A stretch of 9,031 nt of DNA from Candidatus Thorarchaeota archaeon MP11T_1 (GTDB lineage: Archaea; Asgardarchaeota; Thorarchaeia; Thorarchaeales; Thorarchaeaceae), in the NCBI GenBank assembly GCA_002825515.1, contig PJET01000026.1, forward strand, positions 1 through 9,031, read 5' to 3'. Positions 795 through 9,031 of the stretch are shown here, one piece after another. Under the pieces are notes generated by a model. It worked only from the letters and a program-made list of their open reading frames with translations. It searched no databases and had not been told where the DNA came from. Position 1 is the stretch's first letter. The number at the start of each line of letters is the position of its first letter. The position numbers and the translations under genes were made by a program.

Positions 795-2487
795 AAGACG
801 GAGTATCACGAACAATATCACCACCTTCCTCTTCAACTGGCGAACCTAGTTCACGTTGATAAAGCCTATCCCCATACGAAAGTATTGTATGAATCCTCTC
901 TGCCAATTTCTCGTAAGCCTCCTTGGCATTTCCCTGCCTGTTTGCACGCGACCTTGTACCAGCAGTGCGCAACTCAGTAATTTGGTTCAGTCGTTCTGCC
1001 GCCCCGTCATCAATAAGATCTAAAAGAACGCTAACATCAAGAGACCATAAAGCCATATAAATTGCCATAATATCAACCAAACCCAGCCCACTAACTTCAC
1101 CAGAGATGAACTCGATTGCCCGCAACGCATTACTCGCATCCGCTTCTAATCTATCACGCTCATTTTTAGTTTCTTGTAGCTGGGATTCGAAAACCTTAGA
1201 AAGATTCTGAAACTCTGAAATAGTAAAGTCACTATAAGCCAGCGGAGTTTCGTCAGCAGTTTCCCCTATTTCAAATTGCATCTTAGCTATAGTAGATTTC
1301 GCTGACAGTTGCGAGATTCTTTGTTCCAATTCCCAACTGTTCAAACGTCGTTTTGGAATAACAAACCAAGTAGAAACCTCTGTTCCCTGCTCAGGACCAC
1401 CCTCGTTTGATAATGGAACCCAAATAATCTGAGGATAAATACGCTCTAGATTTTCTATATTTTTAACATACAAATGAATCAATCCTTTATACGTCTTTAC
1501 CAAGTCATTCAGGGTGTATAACTCTACCCTACCAGATCCTTCCAGAACTTGCTTTACATCAACATTAGCCACGCCAGAATCAGATAGGGCAGCTGCAATA
1601 TCTCTCTGACGATCTACGGAAATATCTCCCTCTAAAGTGGTCAAATCGACATTATCAATCGCTACGCCCGTCTGTTCAGCAATGTTTTGCTGACGTAAAC
1701 GAAGGCGAAGAATGAATTCTAAACCAGGACGCTTGGCATACCGATTCCTTTCGAATTCCAAGTCTTCCTTCTCTAAGAATGGAGCACCAATTAATCTACT
1801 TTGATCTCCTGATTTAGGATCAACATTAGCAGCTATGACAGGATCTGTCATGAATGGAGCTAATGGATGAAAAACAGTATCATTAAAATAACCCGTGATA
1901 TCAGAACCATCTTTCTTTTTATAACGCTCTTGAATAAGCGATTTGCGAAGGGGGATTGGAAATGATTGCGGATCTGGTTGTGTCAGCGACTTGAATGACT
2001 CCACTCCTAGAGCAATAGCAAAAGGCTTCTGTGCCTTGGGAAAACTCATGGATATGGTAAAAATACTACTTTCCATATTAGCTCTAGAAAACAAAGCGTA
2101 TTTTCGCCTGGATTCATTCTCCCTATGTTGCACAAAGGTTTTGATAGCGGTTGGAATTGCAGCTGCAATGTCAGCCCGCCTAGTTTTCTCATCACCATCA
2201 AGTAAAGGGTTGAAACCAGGGTTGAAGAACTTTCCCGTAGGTTCTATTGCTGGAAGACCAAGCATCCTATAAAATGCATGAGCCCTACTTTCCTGCAATT
2301 TGTTACTCGTAGACAATCCTGGCTGATCAAGCAGACCAGCTATAATAGGAGCATTGTAGCTTCTGTACCTATCAATTGGGCGGACAAACTTCTGGATTAA
2401 GGAATTGATATCCAAATCCATGCTTTGGTAATCGTCAAGAGGACTTTCAGCTTCTTGCTCGCCTATGCTCTGCGGCTCGTCAACCAT
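793..2487 (-). CDS. Unrecognised 564-residue phage structural protein with a coiled-coil region
   Basis: I do not recognise a family. The protein starts with an acidic, flexible segment (1-25). A mixed alpha/beta body follows (about 30-380), including ISMSFPKAQKPFAIALGVES (145-164), a basic stretch RYKKKDG (188-194), LEFILRLRLRQQNIAEQTG (256-274) and IYPQIIWVPLS (350-360). Residues about 384-460 are heptad-like and charged (LEQRISQLSAKSTIAKMQ, QLQETKNERDRLEADA), suggesting a coiled coil. A hydrophobic, Leu-rich helix lies at about 466-492, and the C-terminus is acidic. No enzymatic motif, signal peptide or clear membrane anchor is visible. The ATG overlaps the upstream stop (TAATG). The ribosome binding site is weak: GAGG ten bases away or GGTG four bases away, so translation is probably coupled to the gene before. 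Its place between the hydrophobic protein and the gp25-like wedge implies a baseplate or tail role, which is an inference from context only. Confidence 0.8.
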   Translation of the reverse strand: MVDEPQSIGEQEAESPLDDYQSMDLDINSLIQKFVRPIDRYRSYNAPIIAGLLDQPGLSTSNKLQESRAHAFYRMLGLPAIEPTGKFFNPGFNPLLDGDEKTRRADIAAAIPTAIKTFVQHRENESRRKYALFSRANMESSIFTISMSFPKAQKPFAIALGVESFKSLTQPDPQSFPIPLRKSLIQERYKKKDGSDITGYFNDTVFHPLAPFMTDPVIAANVDPKSGDQSRLIGAPFLEKEDLEFERNRYAKRPGLEFILRLRLRQQNIAEQTGVAIDNVDLTTLEGDISVDRQRDIAAALSDSGVANVDVKQVLEGSGRVELYTLNDLVKTYKGLIHLYVKNIENLERIYPQIIWVPLSNEGGPEQGTEVSTWFVIPKRRLNSWELEQRISQLSAKSTIAKMQFEIGETADETPLAYSDFTISEFQNLSKVFESQLQETKNERDRLEADASNALRAIEFISGEVSGLGLVDIMAIYMALWSLDVSVLLDLIDDGAAERLNQITELRTAGTRSRANRQGNAKEAYEKLAERIHTILSYGDRLYQRELGSPVEEEGGDIVRDTPS

Positions 2488-4628
2488 TATTCACCATCCT
2501 CAGCTACGTCTGGAGGTCCAAAACGAGTCCGAGCATCATCGCTCAGCTCGCCACGGTATACAATCGTCTTATCAATGAACTCGTACGGTAATACGCGAGT
2601 CACAATTTCTGAGTTTACATCATCATTGTCACGGTTGATCACGTCAGCAACTGGTTCTTGACGAACAAAAACTGTCAATTCGCCAGTGCCAGCTGTATCG
2701 CTACTGATTGTTGCCACGAAATCGCCATAACCGTCGTACTCGAATGTGGATAGTTCACCGAATGTGGCCTCTCCCGTGACGAGATCAGCTAAACAAGCAC
2801 CCAAATTCGCGTCAACTCCAACACCCAACTGGGTTCCGGTCTTGTCACGGAGCTGTACAGTAACATCAATATCGTGCTCAATGAACTGAATGTCAGGATC
2901 AAGCTCAATAGTAGTCTGGAATCTGTCAACAGTTTCAGCTACACCGCGGCAATAGAAATCCTCCGCCTCTGCTAAGAGGTCGTTCAAACAGGCAGTAGAC
3001 TCGGATTCAAAAACTGCCGCAGATTCTGCATTAATATTTTTCCTGAACTTTGTTAAAGAACGCGCAAGACAGCCTAAAGCACCTGTTCCATCAGTCCGAT
3101 CAGGGGTCAACGTACCGATATCCGGCAATTCACCAAGTTTCTCGAATGCACTGCGAGTGTCAGAGAATTCAGCGTTCACCACTGCTGATTCAAGTGCCAA
3201 ATCAGGCTGACACATCATAGTGATGATCTTCTTATCGACTAGTACCTCGTAGTTGTACCTGAACGTGTACTCAACATCCAGGAAATAATACCCGTCATCA
3301 ATCGTTGGAAGTGTATTCCTATATAAAGTGTCCCGGGAAATGAACGTTTCTAGTGTGGCCTGATCGCTACCGATGTAATACGGGGTGTAACCATCATTCT
3401 CATCGGATTCGAAAACCTTTCCGCCGACCAAAATCAGAGAACCTGTAGTAATACCAGTATCAGTGCTATTATTCCAAGTACTAGGACTAGTGGTAGGTTT
3501 TTGCCGAACGATAATATTTTGAATACTGAATTTTCGATAACCTTCAGTATCGCTCGGATTGCCAAATTCAGCTGGATCTACCATGATGTTCATATCGAGA
3601 AGATATGGTACATTTACTACGTTTGCGTTACTTTCATAGGTATCGCCCTCTGGCCAGTAAATAAAACCATACTCGGGCGATGGGGTGATAATTTCTACGA
3701 ACTCAAAATCAACAGGATCATCATCGATGAACTGCCATTTTTCATCTCGGAGAGCTGGTAGCGATACATTACCTAAGAATTCAAATATAGGATCGTCCGG
3801 TAGAACTGGCTCAACACGATTAAAATAGATGAGCTGTCCAGTAGCTGATTTATTTCCCTCAAGTCCACCAGTAGCAATGAATGACGGACAAAAATCATCA
3901 GTACAGCAATCGTCTCTTCCCCTTGCGCAGACGCTACGACCTAAAATATCCATTAAAGGACGGATAATTGCAAACAAAGCCGCAATAGCTAGTAGAATTG
4001 CAAAGAGCTGCTCAATCAAACAGAGTAGATAGGCCAGCTTGTTGACAGCGGCAAGAATAGCTTCTTCATCCGCAACGGTAAGTGCACGAGCAAGAATCTC
4101 CAAGTTCCTTAGAATCTGTCTAATATAAGCGAGAATGACCTCGATGATGTACTTTATCAAAGCAATTAATAACAGAATCAAGGCTAGAATCATAATGAGT
4201 AAAGCCAGCCAAGGGAACAACGATAAGAAATCTGGAAGACATCTAGAGAACAAACGCCGAACAGCTCTCATCGTAGCCCACGGGTTCAACAAAGCACACA
4301 AAACATCAATAATACACAGAATGATATTTAGCAGAGCTTGAATGAATTTGTAGAACGCTAGGAACGGAGCAAGCTGGTTAAACAAGCTTGCTAAAACATC
4401 CCAAATGCCTTTGGTAAGGGCATCTGCGTTCGGGATGAACTTAATGCCTTGTGGAAATAAAGCGAAAATTCGCTCAATCAAATCCAAAATGTCTTCTGGT
4501 ATACCCTCGGGAAGAGCTACGTCCGGGAATGGTACTTTAGGTATAGAAAAAGGCAATCCTAATCCTGGCAGGGACGTTCCTGGTCCTGGGAAGATATTGA
4601 TGTTATTTGCAGATGGATCGCAAATCAT
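2487..4628 (-). CDS. Membrane-spanning baseplate-operon protein with C-terminal Ig-like domain
   Basis: This 713-residue protein has a Pro/Gly-rich start (about 12-45, with PGPGTSLPGLGLPFSIPKVP). Three or more long hydrophobic segments follow: about 86-115 (FIQALLNIILCIIDVLCALL), 137-168 (WLALLIMILALILLLIALIK) and 196-228 (LYLL-type, LFAILLAIAALFAII). There is no cleavable signal peptide. A cysteine cluster comes next (C234, C241, C242, C247), then a soluble beta-rich region (about 260-475) and a helical stretch (about 515-570). Residues about 585-658 look like a bacterial Ig-like domain: VTVQLRDKTGTQLGVGV, then a GEATFGELSTFEYDGYGDF stretch, then VATISSDTAGTGELTVFV. Similar hydrophobic virion proteins occur next to the spike in other large myophages, from memory, but no function is established to my knowledge. 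A role at the host membrane during injection is inference. The start follows TAAGGTGATTCATG, where AAGGTG overlaps the spike stop codon. The coding sequence ends TAATG, overlapping the next start. Confidence 0.8.
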   Translation of the reverse strand: MICDPSANNINIFPGPGTSLPGLGLPFSIPKVPFPDVALPEGIPEDILDLIERIFALFPQGIKFIPNADALTKGIWDVLASLFNQLAPFLAFYKFIQALLNIILCIIDVLCALLNPWATMRAVRRLFSRCLPDFLSLFPWLALLIMILALILLLIALIKYIIEVILAYIRQILRNLEILARALTVADEEAILAAVNKLAYLLCLIEQLFAILLAIAALFAIIRPLMDILGRSVCARGRDDCCTDDFCPSFIATGGLEGNKSATGQLIYFNRVEPVLPDDPIFEFLGNVSLPALRDEKWQFIDDDPVDFEFVEIITPSPEYGFIYWPEGDTYESNANVVNVPYLLDMNIMVDPAEFGNPSDTEGYRKFSIQNIIVRQKPTTSPSTWNNSTDTGITTGSLILVGGKVFESDENDGYTPYYIGSDQATLETFISRDTLYRNTLPTIDDGYYFLDVEYTFRYNYEVLVDKKIITMMCQPDLALESAVVNAEFSDTRSAFEKLGELPDIGTLTPDRTDGTGALGCLARSLTKFRKNINAESAAVFESESTACLNDLLAEAEDFYCRGVAETVDRFQTTIELDPDIQFIEHDIDVTVQLRDKTGTQLGVGVDANLGACLADLVTGEATFGELSTFEYDGYGDFVATISSDTAGTGELTVFVRQEPVADVINRDNDDVNSEIVTRVLPYEFIDKTIVYRGELSDDARTRFGPPDVAEDGE

Positions 4629-4632
4629 GAAT

Positions 4633-4638
4633 CACCTT
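4633..4638 (-). promoter_or_regulatory. Ribosome binding site of the hydrophobic protein gene, overlapping the spike stop
   Basis: The minus strand reads TAAGGTGATTCATG: the spike gene's TAA runs into AAGGTG, four bases before the ATG. This fixes the start at 4628 and suggests reinitiation after the spike gene. Confidence 0.7.
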
Positions 4639-6682
4639 AAACAGTTCGACCTGTAGCTCCCTCTGTGGTCCTCTCTACCCACCTGGCATTAGCGCCATCA
4701 TTGGAATAGAAGAAAATACCCTCAGCATCAAAATACATATTGGAATTCACAGACTTAAATCTAATATCACCTTCGCTTACTATATCGATTCTTTGCGGAG
4801 TGTGGATTTTGATACCCTGATTGTCAATTCTAATAGTATGGAAACTACCAGAGTTCCAAACCCGAATATCGATTATTCCGTCACGAACGCTATTATTGTA
4901 TTCAGAGGAAGTAAATCTTGAATCGTCAGTAATTGCTGCTCCGCCAACTTGTAGAAAGATATCTCCATCAAGCGTAGCGGCCAAAGAACGTTGAAATCGA
5001 TCGCGTCCGATTGCGCCTACAATACCGCCAGCACAATCCAACCACAAACTTTGCCTATCCACAGTATTCGCTCCGATACTGAGTGAAAGCATTCCGTCCA
5101 ACGAAATTGTGCCAGAGCGCCCACCAGCATTAGCATCCTCACCAGCCACGATAACCTCAGGAGAAACTACATCTTCTATTGGGTCTACAAAATTCAATAG
5201 GCTATCCGGATATCCACTATTACCCTCCTCAGAGGAATATGGTTGATCGAACTTGTGCAACATGAGCACTTCTGATATCTCGTGGTAAGCCGTTCCCAGC
5301 TTGATACGTTCTCCATCAAAACGATTGATTGGAGCTACGAAACTCTTGAGTGTTTCCTCATTGCTTTTTAACTCAACTACACCCTTCCCATAAGGTTCAA
5401 GATGTATATCAGTATTGTTGGTTTTATTACGCAGAAATTGACCACGATCTACATCCTCTTTAGCTCCTTTTAGATTTGAGAAGTTTTCGTGCCGAACTAG
5501 CAATGAAACGTTTCCAACTTCACTTGAAGCCGGTACATTCATTTTGAATTGCCCTTCTTTGTCAATATCAAAGAAGAAACGACTACGACCACGAGCATAA
5601 TCAGAAACGTCAGTATAATCTGGAGTGAAAATGCCAGGAAAGTCACGGCCAGAATTGGTGGATTCGTCTACATTCTCTTTTCGAGCATTCAGTTCGAAGT
5701 GATATGCGATACTCTTGCGTAATTGCTCTCGTAGCTTTCTGAAAACTATTCCCTGATCCTCTTCGGATTTTCTGAATGACAATGAATCAATTAGGCCACT
5801 AGGTAGGACGCTACGGTTGATGTCCAGAATATTGCCGAAAATGTCAACTACTGTACCGATGATGATCTCAGCTAAGAAATTAGGATGGTCCAGGCTAAGA
5901 CTCATCGTGTCGGTTCGACTATTTTTCCTTTGGTAAGGTTTAGTTTCTGGGAGATCCTCTCCCTCATAAAGCCGCTCCTCAAACTCGTCATTTGTATACC
6001 CAAAAGAACTAGCAAATTCGTAGAACATTACCCGATTTTCGGCTAGTGTTGGGTTACGATTAGAGGCGGTCGAGACCGAAGTAGCTGTCCGAGGATCAAG
6101 ACCAATCTCTTTGAGGGTGGTATGGTACGCATGACCAGAGAGAGAAGAACCTGCTGCGCCACGGGAATTATTAGATTCCAAATCACGTCGAATTGGTCCA
6201 ATTACTTCTCGGTGAGCATCCGTGAAGTGCATTTCGTTGTAGAAACGTGAACTCCAAATTCCCCTTATAGGATCTGCCTGGGTAAACTGAACAGAATCTC
6301 CTTGTGATACACCGTCATGCGGATCAACCAGGAGATTAACATCGTTCTCTACTAGTGTGAGCCAACGTCCACGACGGAATTTTCTGGTTGGTGCCACTCG
6401 CCGAGTACCATCTCCATCGTATCCGGTTTGAGAATCGGGCTGGTCATAGCCGGTGAACATATATTCACCACCCTGACCCTCTATCACGAAAACTGGTGTG
6501 CCTCTTTCTGGATATCCACCAGAAATTTGTCCTTTACTTCCAATCCAACCAGCAGGGATTTTGAGTGGAACTTGCCGCCCAGATTGCAATGCTATAGTGG
6601 CCACGCCAGAACCTGGCTGGAAACTGATAATGGTAGCTCTAATTGGAAGACCGGGCACCGATCCTACATCATAATTTCCCAT
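4637..6682 (-). CDS. Central baseplate spike protein (gp5/gpV-like, no lysozyme domain recognised)
   Basis: This 681-residue protein has the two-part layout of a tail spike. Residues about 12-80 form an OB-fold-like domain, with LPIRATIISFQPGSGVATIA (12-31), a GRQVPLKIPAGWIGS segment and GTPVFVIEGQGGEYMFTGYD (61-80), as at the N-terminus of gp5/gpV proteins that plug the hub. Residues about 520-665 are repetitive short beta strands: GTISLDGMLSLSIGANTVDR, WLDCAGGIVGAIGRDR, LDGDIFLQVGG, IDIRVWNSG, TIRIDNQGIKIHTPQRIDI and VSEGDIRFKSVNSNMYFDAEG. This matches a trimeric beta-helical needle that pierces the outer envelope. The roughly 430 residues between them (85-515) are unrecognised, except for a conserved-looking FKMNVPASSEVGNVSLLVRH stretch (379-398). 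In T4 gp5 this place holds a lysozyme, but I see no lysozyme signature. No C-terminal HxH iron-binding tip is present, so a separate tip protein may cap it. The ATG overlaps the hub stop (TAATG), with AGAGGA six bases upstream. Confidence 0.85.
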   Translation of the reverse strand: MGNYDVGSVPGLPIRATIISFQPGSGVATIALQSGRQVPLKIPAGWIGSKGQISGGYPERGTPVFVIEGQGGEYMFTGYDQPDSQTGYDGDGTRRVAPTRKFRRGRWLTLVENDVNLLVDPHDGVSQGDSVQFTQADPIRGIWSSRFYNEMHFTDAHREVIGPIRRDLESNNSRGAAGSSLSGHAYHTTLKEIGLDPRTATSVSTASNRNPTLAENRVMFYEFASSFGYTNDEFEERLYEGEDLPETKPYQRKNSRTDTMSLSLDHPNFLAEIIIGTVVDIFGNILDINRSVLPSGLIDSLSFRKSEEDQGIVFRKLREQLRKSIAYHFELNARKENVDESTNSGRDFPGIFTPDYTDVSDYARGRSRFFFDIDKEGQFKMNVPASSEVGNVSLLVRHENFSNLKGAKEDVDRGQFLRNKTNNTDIHLEPYGKGVVELKSNEETLKSFVAPINRFDGERIKLGTAYHEISEVLMLHKFDQPYSSEEGNSGYPDSLLNFVDPIEDVVSPEVIVAGEDANAGGRSGTISLDGMLSLSIGANTVDRQSLWLDCAGGIVGAIGRDRFQRSLAATLDGDIFLQVGGAAITDDSRFTSSEYNNSVRDGIIDIRVWNSGSFHTIRIDNQGIKIHTPQRIDIVSEGDIRFKSVNSNMYFDAEGIFFYSNDGANARWVERTTEGATGRTV

Positions 6683-8544
6683 TAAGATCCTCTACCGCTA
6701 CGAGCGGCATCAATAACAGCATTCGCTGCTTGGCCAGCTTCGTTCAAACCATCAGTTGCGCTAACAGGGGGTTTCTTGACCAGCTCATAATCAACAAATA
6801 TATCCAATACAGAATTAGCTAAAAGGAGCCTGAATTGAGATGGTGTCGAATCAGAAGTATCTAAAGCCCGGGTTACCTGAATTGCAGCGCTAGAAGGCCC
6901 TTGTGTATTTTTGCTCGGCTCGGTAGCCTCCGATTCTGGTGTTACAATCCTCCTTGTTTGAGCATTATAGTCAGTCATATCGACTTCTTCTATAATGACA
7001 TCATCTTCATTAAGACCAAATGTTTTCTGTTTATTTCCACTGATATCTAGTGTGATTGGAACCAAACTTTGTGATGATCCATCTACGTCCTCAGGATAGA
7101 TTAACCAATCTCTGACACTTTCTGCCAACGTGGACATCTCAATATCATCAGAACCGCCAGTTACATAGTACACAATCTTAATCCGGGCTTTCTGTCTTCT
7201 AACAGAAACCTGATTCAAACTACCACTGACCGCATACAGAGTATTGGTAAGAATGTCCTTGTTACGTTCTCCCCAACGTCCACGCAATAATAACTCCAAC
7301 GGTTCGGTATTTTCCGTAAGACGAGAAAGTACTCCCAAATCATCCGATGTGTAGTATCCAACGACTGCTAAAGCACCAAGTGATCTTGCAGATCCTAGCG
7401 TTTGTTGACGTTCGGTCCTGAACTGGCCAGTAAATCCTTGTGCGTTGTACAAAATCTTTCCAGCGATATCTAACATGGTTGGGATATATTCACCAGGATT
7501 ATGGCCATAAGTAAGTTCCAGAGTAGTATCAAGCTTACCATAGCTAAATGCTTGACCTACAGACTTCACATAGAACAACAAGTTACGATCTAAGATGTAT
7601 ACCACGTCTCCGGGTTGATAATATTCGTTGTATCCAGCAACCTGGACTGATCCTTGCAGAATGTTTTCACGTGCAGCTAACAATGTGGCTATAGCATATG
7701 GAGCACATTGGCTATCTGGATCACTCAAAAATGGAGCTTCGATAGCTTTGGATACACGAAGACCATACTGATACCACATATCATAGTCAACAGCATAGGC
7801 AGATGTAATGGCATTTCCATCGCCGGAAGTTTGGAGATTTGATAGTTGATTTCTGGGAACAAAACCCTCCCCAAACAGCCCATTGACTGTAATCATTGTG
7901 AATGGTGGTGGGTTTTCGGAGATAGTGAGGCTAACTATACGGTCAGGTGTAAGCACAAATCTACGACCAGAGCGCGGACCAATATCATCTTCATCTTCGT
8001 ACTCTATCATATGCTCCAAAAATTGAGGTATTTCAGTCCTGCGATAAAGAGATGGGGTTGTTAGCGCTTTTGCTGTTTTATTGCTATTACTAGGTTCAAA
8101 GAGATTTTTGAACCCACCCGAGAAAACGTCCTCGTTTTGCACATCAGGCGCGTTAATACTAACACCTTCCTTGAGATTACGAATAGCATTACTGACGGAC
8201 CTAAGAAGTGTTTGGCGCTCCGCTAGGAAATTGGCAATCTGATTGATGATATTGATACGATCTAGACGGCTAACAGTAGTTCCCTCAGCCAAACGTCTGA
8301 ATCTAGGATTACCAAAGAGTTCATTTACTTTCTTTGGTTCGCGTCCTGTCTTGATACGCAGGCGCTGGCGAATGGGCTCAGCAATATCCGTTTGACGATT
8401 TGGCTGAGTATTGGGGTTGAAGTTAGCAATCGCGTTCGCCTGTACATTCGGCGGAAAGAGTTTGGATACTTTGGTTAAAGTGGATATCTGTTCGCTAATT
8501 TGATCCAGTTCCTTTAGTGCTGTGTTGTCCCAACTTTCGATCAA
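6682..8544 (-). CDS. Tail/baseplate hub protein, C-terminal part (continuation of the upstream hub frame)
   Basis: This 620-codon frame ends at TAA 6684-6682. Residues about 170-366 look like the core of a phage hub (gp27/gpD type): PQFLEHMIEYEDEDDIGPRS (173-192), GRRFVLTPDRIVSLTISENP (193-212), and a Y-x-PGDVVYILDR...LLFYVKSVGQAFSYG strand pair (309-336). These are followed by TTLELTYGHNPGEYIPTMLD (340-359). Hubs form the ring between tail tube and spike. The N-terminal 160 residues are helical and basic. A C-terminal extension (about 370-620) is not recognised. The first start-like codon is TTG at 8544, but CACAAACCAGTCCTGAT before it contains no Shine-Dalgarno, and the first ATG comes only near residue 179. 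The frame is open back to 8670, so I read this as the continuation of the gene at 8562-9031 after a -1 shift, not an independent gene. The exact N-terminus is uncertain. The spike gene follows at once with a 1-base overlap. Confidence 0.75.
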   Translation of the reverse strand: MIESWDNTALKELDQISEQISTLTKVSKLFPPNVQANAIANFNPNTQPNRQTDIAEPIRQRLRIKTGREPKKVNELFGNPRFRRLAEGTTVSRLDRINIINQIANFLAERQTLLRSVSNAIRNLKEGVSINAPDVQNEDVFSGGFKNLFEPSNSNKTAKALTTPSLYRRTEIPQFLEHMIEYEDEDDIGPRSGRRFVLTPDRIVSLTISENPPPFTMITVNGLFGEGFVPRNQLSNLQTSGDGNAITSAYAVDYDMWYQYGLRVSKAIEAPFLSDPDSQCAPYAIATLLAARENILQGSVQVAGYNEYYQPGDVVYILDRNLLFYVKSVGQAFSYGKLDTTLELTYGHNPGEYIPTMLDIAGKILYNAQGFTGQFRTERQQTLGSARSLGALAVVGYYTSDDLGVLSRLTENTEPLELLLRGRWGERNKDILTNTLYAVSGSLNQVSVRRQKARIKIVYYVTGGSDDIEMSTLAESVRDWLIYPEDVDGSSQSLVPITLDISGNKQKTFGLNEDDVIIEEVDMTDYNAQTRRIVTPESEATEPSKNTQGPSSAAIQVTRALDTSDSTPSQFRLLLANSVLDIFVDYELVKKPPVSATDGLNEAGQAANAVIDAARSGRGS

Positions 8545-8561
8545 ATCAGGACTGGTTTGTG

Positions 8562-9031
8562 TCAGTACGTTCCAGAGGGATCTAGTTCCAATCCTACCAT
8601 CACCATTAAAATCTGTGAGGAACCAAAAGAGGAACCTCCCATGGTACCACTTGTGATCAAAGTAATGATTTCATTATCGTTTCTAGCTCCTAGTGAGATG
8701 GCACGAAGACGAATTTCATCCTCTATAATTTCAATTTGATTGAAAATAGCCCGAATCTGGTTGAAATATAGATTCTCTAGGAAATCTGGAAAAACTTTGA
8801 CGCCAGTTTCCTCACGATCCTGGAACATCTTATAGAACACCGAACTTGGGATTCGATTATACAATGGTGGTCGAACCTCAATATGACCTTGTGTATTTGC
8901 AAAACACTCTAATCCCAATAGATTCTTTACACCAGTAATCTTATCGCCAATGGTATTGTATTCACTATTGAAAACCTCAATCTTATTTCCGATCTTCCTT
9001 TCGAAAGCTTGGATATCGAAATTCTTGTCGT
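8562..9031 (-). CDS. Tail/baseplate hub protein, upstream part (runs off the right edge)
   Basis: The frame is open from the window edge to a TGA at 8564-8562, giving 155 visible residues. The TTG at 8918 is not needed as a start, because the coding frame continues upstream of it (visible residues begin DKNFDIQAFERKIGNK). The segment ANTQGHIEVRPPLYNRIPSS (about 45-64), followed by VFYKMFQDREETGVKVFPDF and a helical stretch ending EIIEDEIRLRAISLGA, resembles the middle of large hub proteins, where an IEVRPP-type strand precedes a loader helix. The last residues in this frame (about 135-155, SSQILMVMVGLELDPSGTY) look unlike a natural C-terminus. The overlapping -1 frame there reads sensibly into the next gene. 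The gene is therefore probably the 5' part of one hub gene, joined to 6682-8544 by a frameshift or broken by a mutation or sequencing error. The true start lies beyond the window. Confidence 0.75.
   Translation of the reverse strand, partial: DKNFDIQAFERKIGNKIEVFNSEYNTIGDKITGVKNLLGLECFANTQGHIEVRPPLYNRIPSSVFYKMFQDREETGVKVFPDFLENLYFNQIRAIFNQIEIIEDEIRLRAISLGARNDNEIITLITSGTMGGSSFGSSQILMVMVGLELDPSGTY
8565..8670 (-). other. Frame-change window within the hub gene (-1 direction)
   Basis: Both hub frames are open here. The downstream frame has its last upstream stop (TGA) at 8673-8671, and the upstream frame stops at 8564-8562, so the switch must occur between them. In the downstream frame the stretch from 8613 encodes DFNGDGRIG and then TRSLWNVLTQTSPD, which runs into LIESWDNTALK. 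The upstream frame encodes low-complexity MVMVGLELDPSGTY over the same bases. A U-UUU run (T8628-T8625, codons TCT TTT GGT) is the best slip point, since a Phe tRNA could re-pair with TTT one base back. It is not a canonical X-XXY-YYZ heptamer, and no downstream pseudoknot was established. Confidence 0.65.
8617..8636 (-). repeat. Short tandem direct repeat (GGTTCCTC twice, separated by TTTT)
   Basis: On the minus strand GGTTCCTC occurs at 8636-8629 and again at 8624-8617, with exactly TTTT between. It lies inside the frame-change window, just before the sequence that makes sense in the downstream frame. The repeat unit (12 bases) would itself keep the frame, but such a repeat plus a T run is a likely place for replication slippage or an assembly error. 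Confidence 0.7.

Follow-up and report, generated by a model that had tools for sequence, protein, structure and literature searches.

Programmed frameshifts are known in phage tail genes, and the closest described cases are found in SPP1, where, according to the excerpts of the reference considered here, gp17.1* arises through a +1 shift and gp17.5* through a putative -1 shift at UUUUUUC (PMC6316719). With regard to programmed frameshifting in a phage baseplate hub, these excerpts treat other tail genes, and the term 'baseplate hub' occurs in them in the reference list only. A table in the same source lists single-base corrections of the SPP1 sequence, one of which fuses two former ORFs into one gene, hence even the sequence of a reference phage has carried frame errors (PMC6316719). 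We analyzed a 9,031-nucleotide stretch of contig PJET01000026.1, deposited as part of Candidatus Thorarchaeota archaeon MP11T_1 and hereafter called the window, in which a tail hub gene of an uncultured large tailed phage is read in two frames. The hub gene shares with SPP1 gp17.1/17.1* (+1) and gp17.5/17.5* (putative -1) that it is a phage tail gene with two overlapping frames; while the SPP1 genes, as described in the excerpts (PMC6316719), possess defined slip sequences, the hub gene lacks a slippery heptamer in the overlap and its relatives are read in one frame.

The hub gene lies on the minus strand. Its upstream piece (8562..9029, 155 codons) is open from the window edge at 9029, contains the motif GHIEVRPP and terminates at a TGA at 8564-8562. 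The downstream piece (6682..8670) carries the motifs PGDVVYI, FYVKSV and LTYGH; its frame has a TGA codon immediately above 8670 and is then open down to a stop at 6682. Codons start at positions of 2 mod 3 in the upstream and 0 mod 3 in the downstream frame, which corresponds to a -1 (or +2) change, and the two frames overlap at 8670-8562, i.e. by about 36 codons. The first ATG, GTG or TTG of the downstream frame is a TTG at 8544, from which an ORF of 620 residues extends; no Shine-Dalgarno sequence is present in the 20 bases preceding this codon (TGACACAAACCAGTCCTGAT), and the first ATG follows only at 8010, 178 codons past the TTG. The 620-residue protein is a singleton in the protein listing, with one member from one contig of 9,031 bases, which the window most likely represents in full. 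Re-reading of the sequence, which is free of ambiguous bases across the window, thus reproduced the layout given in the earlier note, including its stop, its opening and its TTG without a ribosome binding site.

The two pieces were compared separately by BLASTP with 123 proteins. Both matched the same relatives in all cases, and in 122 of the 123 they did so in consecutive order along the chain, as judged by our own criterion, which one protein failed. Since two separate searches lead to the same relatives, with the pieces in consecutive positions, the split into two frames is more than a chance juxtaposition. The homology of the upstream frame ends at residues 128–138 (8648-8616) in at least 79 of the 123 proteins, in some earlier, and extends to residue 153 in the longest case, so that approximately the first 128–138 residues of this piece are homologous to relatives and its remainder is an out-of-frame reading. 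The homology of the downstream frame starts at residue 15 (8628) in 75 of the 123 proteins, at residue 11 (8640) in 18 and at residue 5 in the earliest case. The last residues of the upstream and the first residues of the downstream piece have little or no counterpart in the relatives, and the homology changes frame within 8616..8648 (minus strand). In the relatives, this junction is formed by a linker that varies in length and is often rich in Gly, Ser and Asn; in most of them, F-x-F-[LIV]-[TS] follows. The nearest full-length relatives share about 78–80% identity with the upstream and 63–65% with the downstream piece. On these sequence grounds, both pieces are parts of one hub protein that comprises about 1,700 residues in relatives. 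The earlier reading of both parts as segments of one protein is hence borne out; the full protein, with about 1,580–1,770 residues in relatives, exceeds the about 775 residues visible to the earlier note because the window edge cuts the hub gene.

The assignment as a tail hub draws on a structure model of moderate confidence, computed for an intact relative rather than for the window protein, which resembles the phage Mu hub gp44. Comparison of this modelled fold with hubs of the Mu gp44/T4 gp27 type (PDB 1wru, 9ki1, 1k28) fits the identity given in the earlier note. The family is far longer than these hubs, with about 1,700 residues, and differs from them further in that a long modelled helical stretch separates the ends of the hub match and that its N-terminal part comprises about 900 residues. 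In the relative's model, the ends of the hub match lie on both sides of the position of the break; a short product terminating there would thus hold only part of the hub. Neither window piece matched Pfam or PHROG, and a profile search of solved structures gave a weak match to the peptidase-domain protein 9euf_E, a chain of the phi812 baseplate (E 0.032), and one to a designed protein (E 0.69). PHROG 1015, annotated as 'tail protein with lysin activity', is matched by 20 of the 29 sequences in alignment A1 (E up to 0.01, the best at 3.3e-7); it is matched neither by the window's own pieces (E up to 0.001) nor by the segment of the relative L001, for which no PHROG family scored at E up to 0.01.

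The genomic surroundings agree with this assignment, as the hub gene lies beside genes for baseplate and putative spike proteins, all on the minus strand. It is directly followed by a gene of 681 aa (4637..6682) without family match, which, by position and by eye, we take to encode a central spike/baseplate protein. A 713-residue protein of the baseplate region (2487-4628) has an N-terminal third that appears strongly hydrophobic by eye and matches no family above the cutoff; in the fetched loci, 71 ORFs match it, overlapping loci included. A baseplate/sheath-initiator-like protein is encoded at 353-784 (matches to baseplate PHROGs, phrog_2669 at E 1.4e-10; Pfam Sheath_initiator below the cutoff). 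Among the best nine matches per gene, the 681- and 713-aa proteins align with their relatives over the full length, the former with relatives of 674–680 codons. The relatives of a 564-aa gene are cut by the locus end among its best nine matches, and the fetched loci yielded no match to a 143-aa gene. The intact 681- and 713-aa genes leave a single detected break in about 9 kb, which does not indicate general decay.

We then asked how the junction is organized in relatives. Searches of IMG/VR yielded 32 loci with the downstream piece, 6 with the upstream piece and 50 with the relative P0025; after nine loci on already counted contigs had been removed by hand (L034-L037, L077, L081, L082, L085 and L086), 79 distinct contigs remained. 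Three of these miss the junction, because they start after it (L011 and L012) or end before it (L033). All 76 contigs that reach it carry one ORF across the junction, and they represent 70 distinct protein sequences. Measured from stop to stop, the hub ORFs listed that are uncut by a contig end comprise 1,577–1,760 residues, L007 excepted. A protein database search with residues 930–1330 of L001 found 402 relatives, and in all 120 of those listed both sides of the junction are contained in one chain. The two-frame layout is consequently no feature of the family. In L007 the hub gene is also split, into overlapping ORFs at 1607-3112 and 2946-6815, at about residues 448–459 of P0001. It is the only such break detected among the 76 spanning contigs, or one break, under the criterion used, in about 379 kb of ORF sequence spanning the junction, and its location at another place of the hub gene is the pattern that random errors would give.

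A search for the downstream piece among shorter proteins, in which scoring was confined to the 7,993 candidates with the most words in common, found 32 relatives, four of which are included in the BLASTP set of 123. Thirteen span the junction and 19 start after it. The starts of the latter are scattered between residues 1164 and 1369 of P0001, beyond the junction motif at 1087, and 16 of the 19 are carried by contigs of at most 6.6 kb; many are probably cut ends. P0010, P0032 and P0034 (344–411 residues) start well past the junction despite contigs of 20–92 kb. Proteins of 741–767 residues beginning with MSYN (P0025, P0026 and P0028) suggested a naturally two-gene hub, a candidate that we rejected, as the viral loci found with P0025 have one long ORF of 1,577–1,760 residues where uncut by a contig end.

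The layout of the window might be read as two separate genes, with the start of the second at the TTG at 8544 or elsewhere, and the in-frame TTG, the 620-residue ORF behind it and the late starts of 19 of the 32 shorter relatives, three of them on long contigs, could be taken in its favor. The lack of a Shine-Dalgarno sequence at this TTG and the scatter of the late starts, mostly on short contigs, speak against it, and we regard two genes as extremely unlikely. The earlier note had raised a programmed -1 ribosomal frameshift yielding a short and a long hub, with a candidate slip at TCT TTT GGT (8622..8630). The overlap of about 36 codons, the -1 direction and the precedent in SPP1 are compatible with such an event; the candidate site is indeed present and falls within the interval in which the homology changes frame, and slippage by one base would in principle let the 0-frame TTT at 8627-8625 pair with TTT again. 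The site is, however, not an X_XXY_YYZ heptamer, as the earlier note had itself remarked, and from 8562 to 8675 the upstream frame contains none of this kind, while the window's other frames contain 11 by chance. Re-pairing at T TTT is weak as evidence since NNT TTT codon pairs are common, with 23 in the 2,924 codons of the window's frames. The RNA at 8650-8550 folds no better than shuffled sequences (z = 0.34; shuffles as good or better in 123 of 200 cases) and gives no sign of a stimulatory structure in this comparison of pseudoknot-free folds of that stretch. Near the site, 3 of 27 relatives have an X_XXY_YYZ heptamer and 8 of 27 an X_XXX run, which we take as chance because these genes stay in one frame there. 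Together with the single ORF in all 76 spanning contigs, which argues against a shift as a family feature, these results leave a programmed frameshift very unlikely. The idea of a short and a long hub is also weakened, since the ends of the hub match flank the break and the short form would be only a partial hub. A recent length change of the linker in this lineage only, with the two-frame gene rescued by slippage at T TTT to give partial and full hubs, is likewise extremely unlikely.

We therefore consider it probable that the window carries a single hub gene whose frame was broken by a small, non-programmed indel in the variable linker at about 8648-8616, most likely through an error of sequencing or assembly. 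The earlier note had rated an indel or error as at least as likely as a programmed shift, and the one-ORF relatives, the absence of a heptamer and the unremarkable RNA fold support this ranking. Some observations count against this reading: the longest homopolymer at the break consists of four T, so that no long run is present; a copy from the same phage population was not detected, the 36-base stretch spanning the break occurring in no IMG/VR contig; and 19 of the 32 shorter relatives start after the junction. A true indel in the sampled phage DNA, be it from a dead genome, a decaying prophage or a minor variant picked by the assembler, is less likely but deserves some weight. The linker, whose length varies among relatives, thus tolerates or accumulates length changes; a direct repeat of 8 bases (GGTTCCTC, at 8636-8629 and 8624-8617) offers a possible place for a slip; and the assembled sequence by itself is equally compatible with error and mutation. 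Against a mutation, the comparable neighbor genes are intact and give no sign of a decaying prophage. In addition, loss of the second part of the hub should be lethal, because the hub match has one end on either side of the break, and a phage with a partial hub should neither multiply nor reach an abundance that assembles, which favors a technical cause. The weights that we give to error and mutation reflect judgement rather than a measured split, and a technical cause is the most likely one.

The hub family to which the broken gene belongs (L001-L088, about 1,700 residues) occurs on contigs that reach 480,838 bases. Of 50,697 phage records, one is weakly matched by L001, the uncultured 485-kb LR745208.1 (E 2e-3); L041 has no match in the phage collection, nor does the window at the nucleotide or its downstream piece at the protein level, and a scan of genome contigs gave four pattern matches without any relative. 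The family represents a widespread, little-annotated group of large phages. Hub relatives are also present in metagenome-assembled genomes named Candidatus Thorarchaeota (three), Nitrosarchaeum and Flavobacteriaceae (P0005, P0014, P0043, P0015 and P0018), on contigs of 2.7–4.4 kb; such deposits are perhaps misbinned phage contigs, or they may hint at hosts. A programmed shift in this gene would have meant a new way of setting the make-up of a tail hub, against which the evidence stands. With the indel as the preferred reading, a small length change in the linker would break the frame in this contig alone, and the actual phage would make one long hub protein without any frameshift. The annotation is to be corrected accordingly, to one frame-broken hub gene in place of a short hub and a TTG-started protein.
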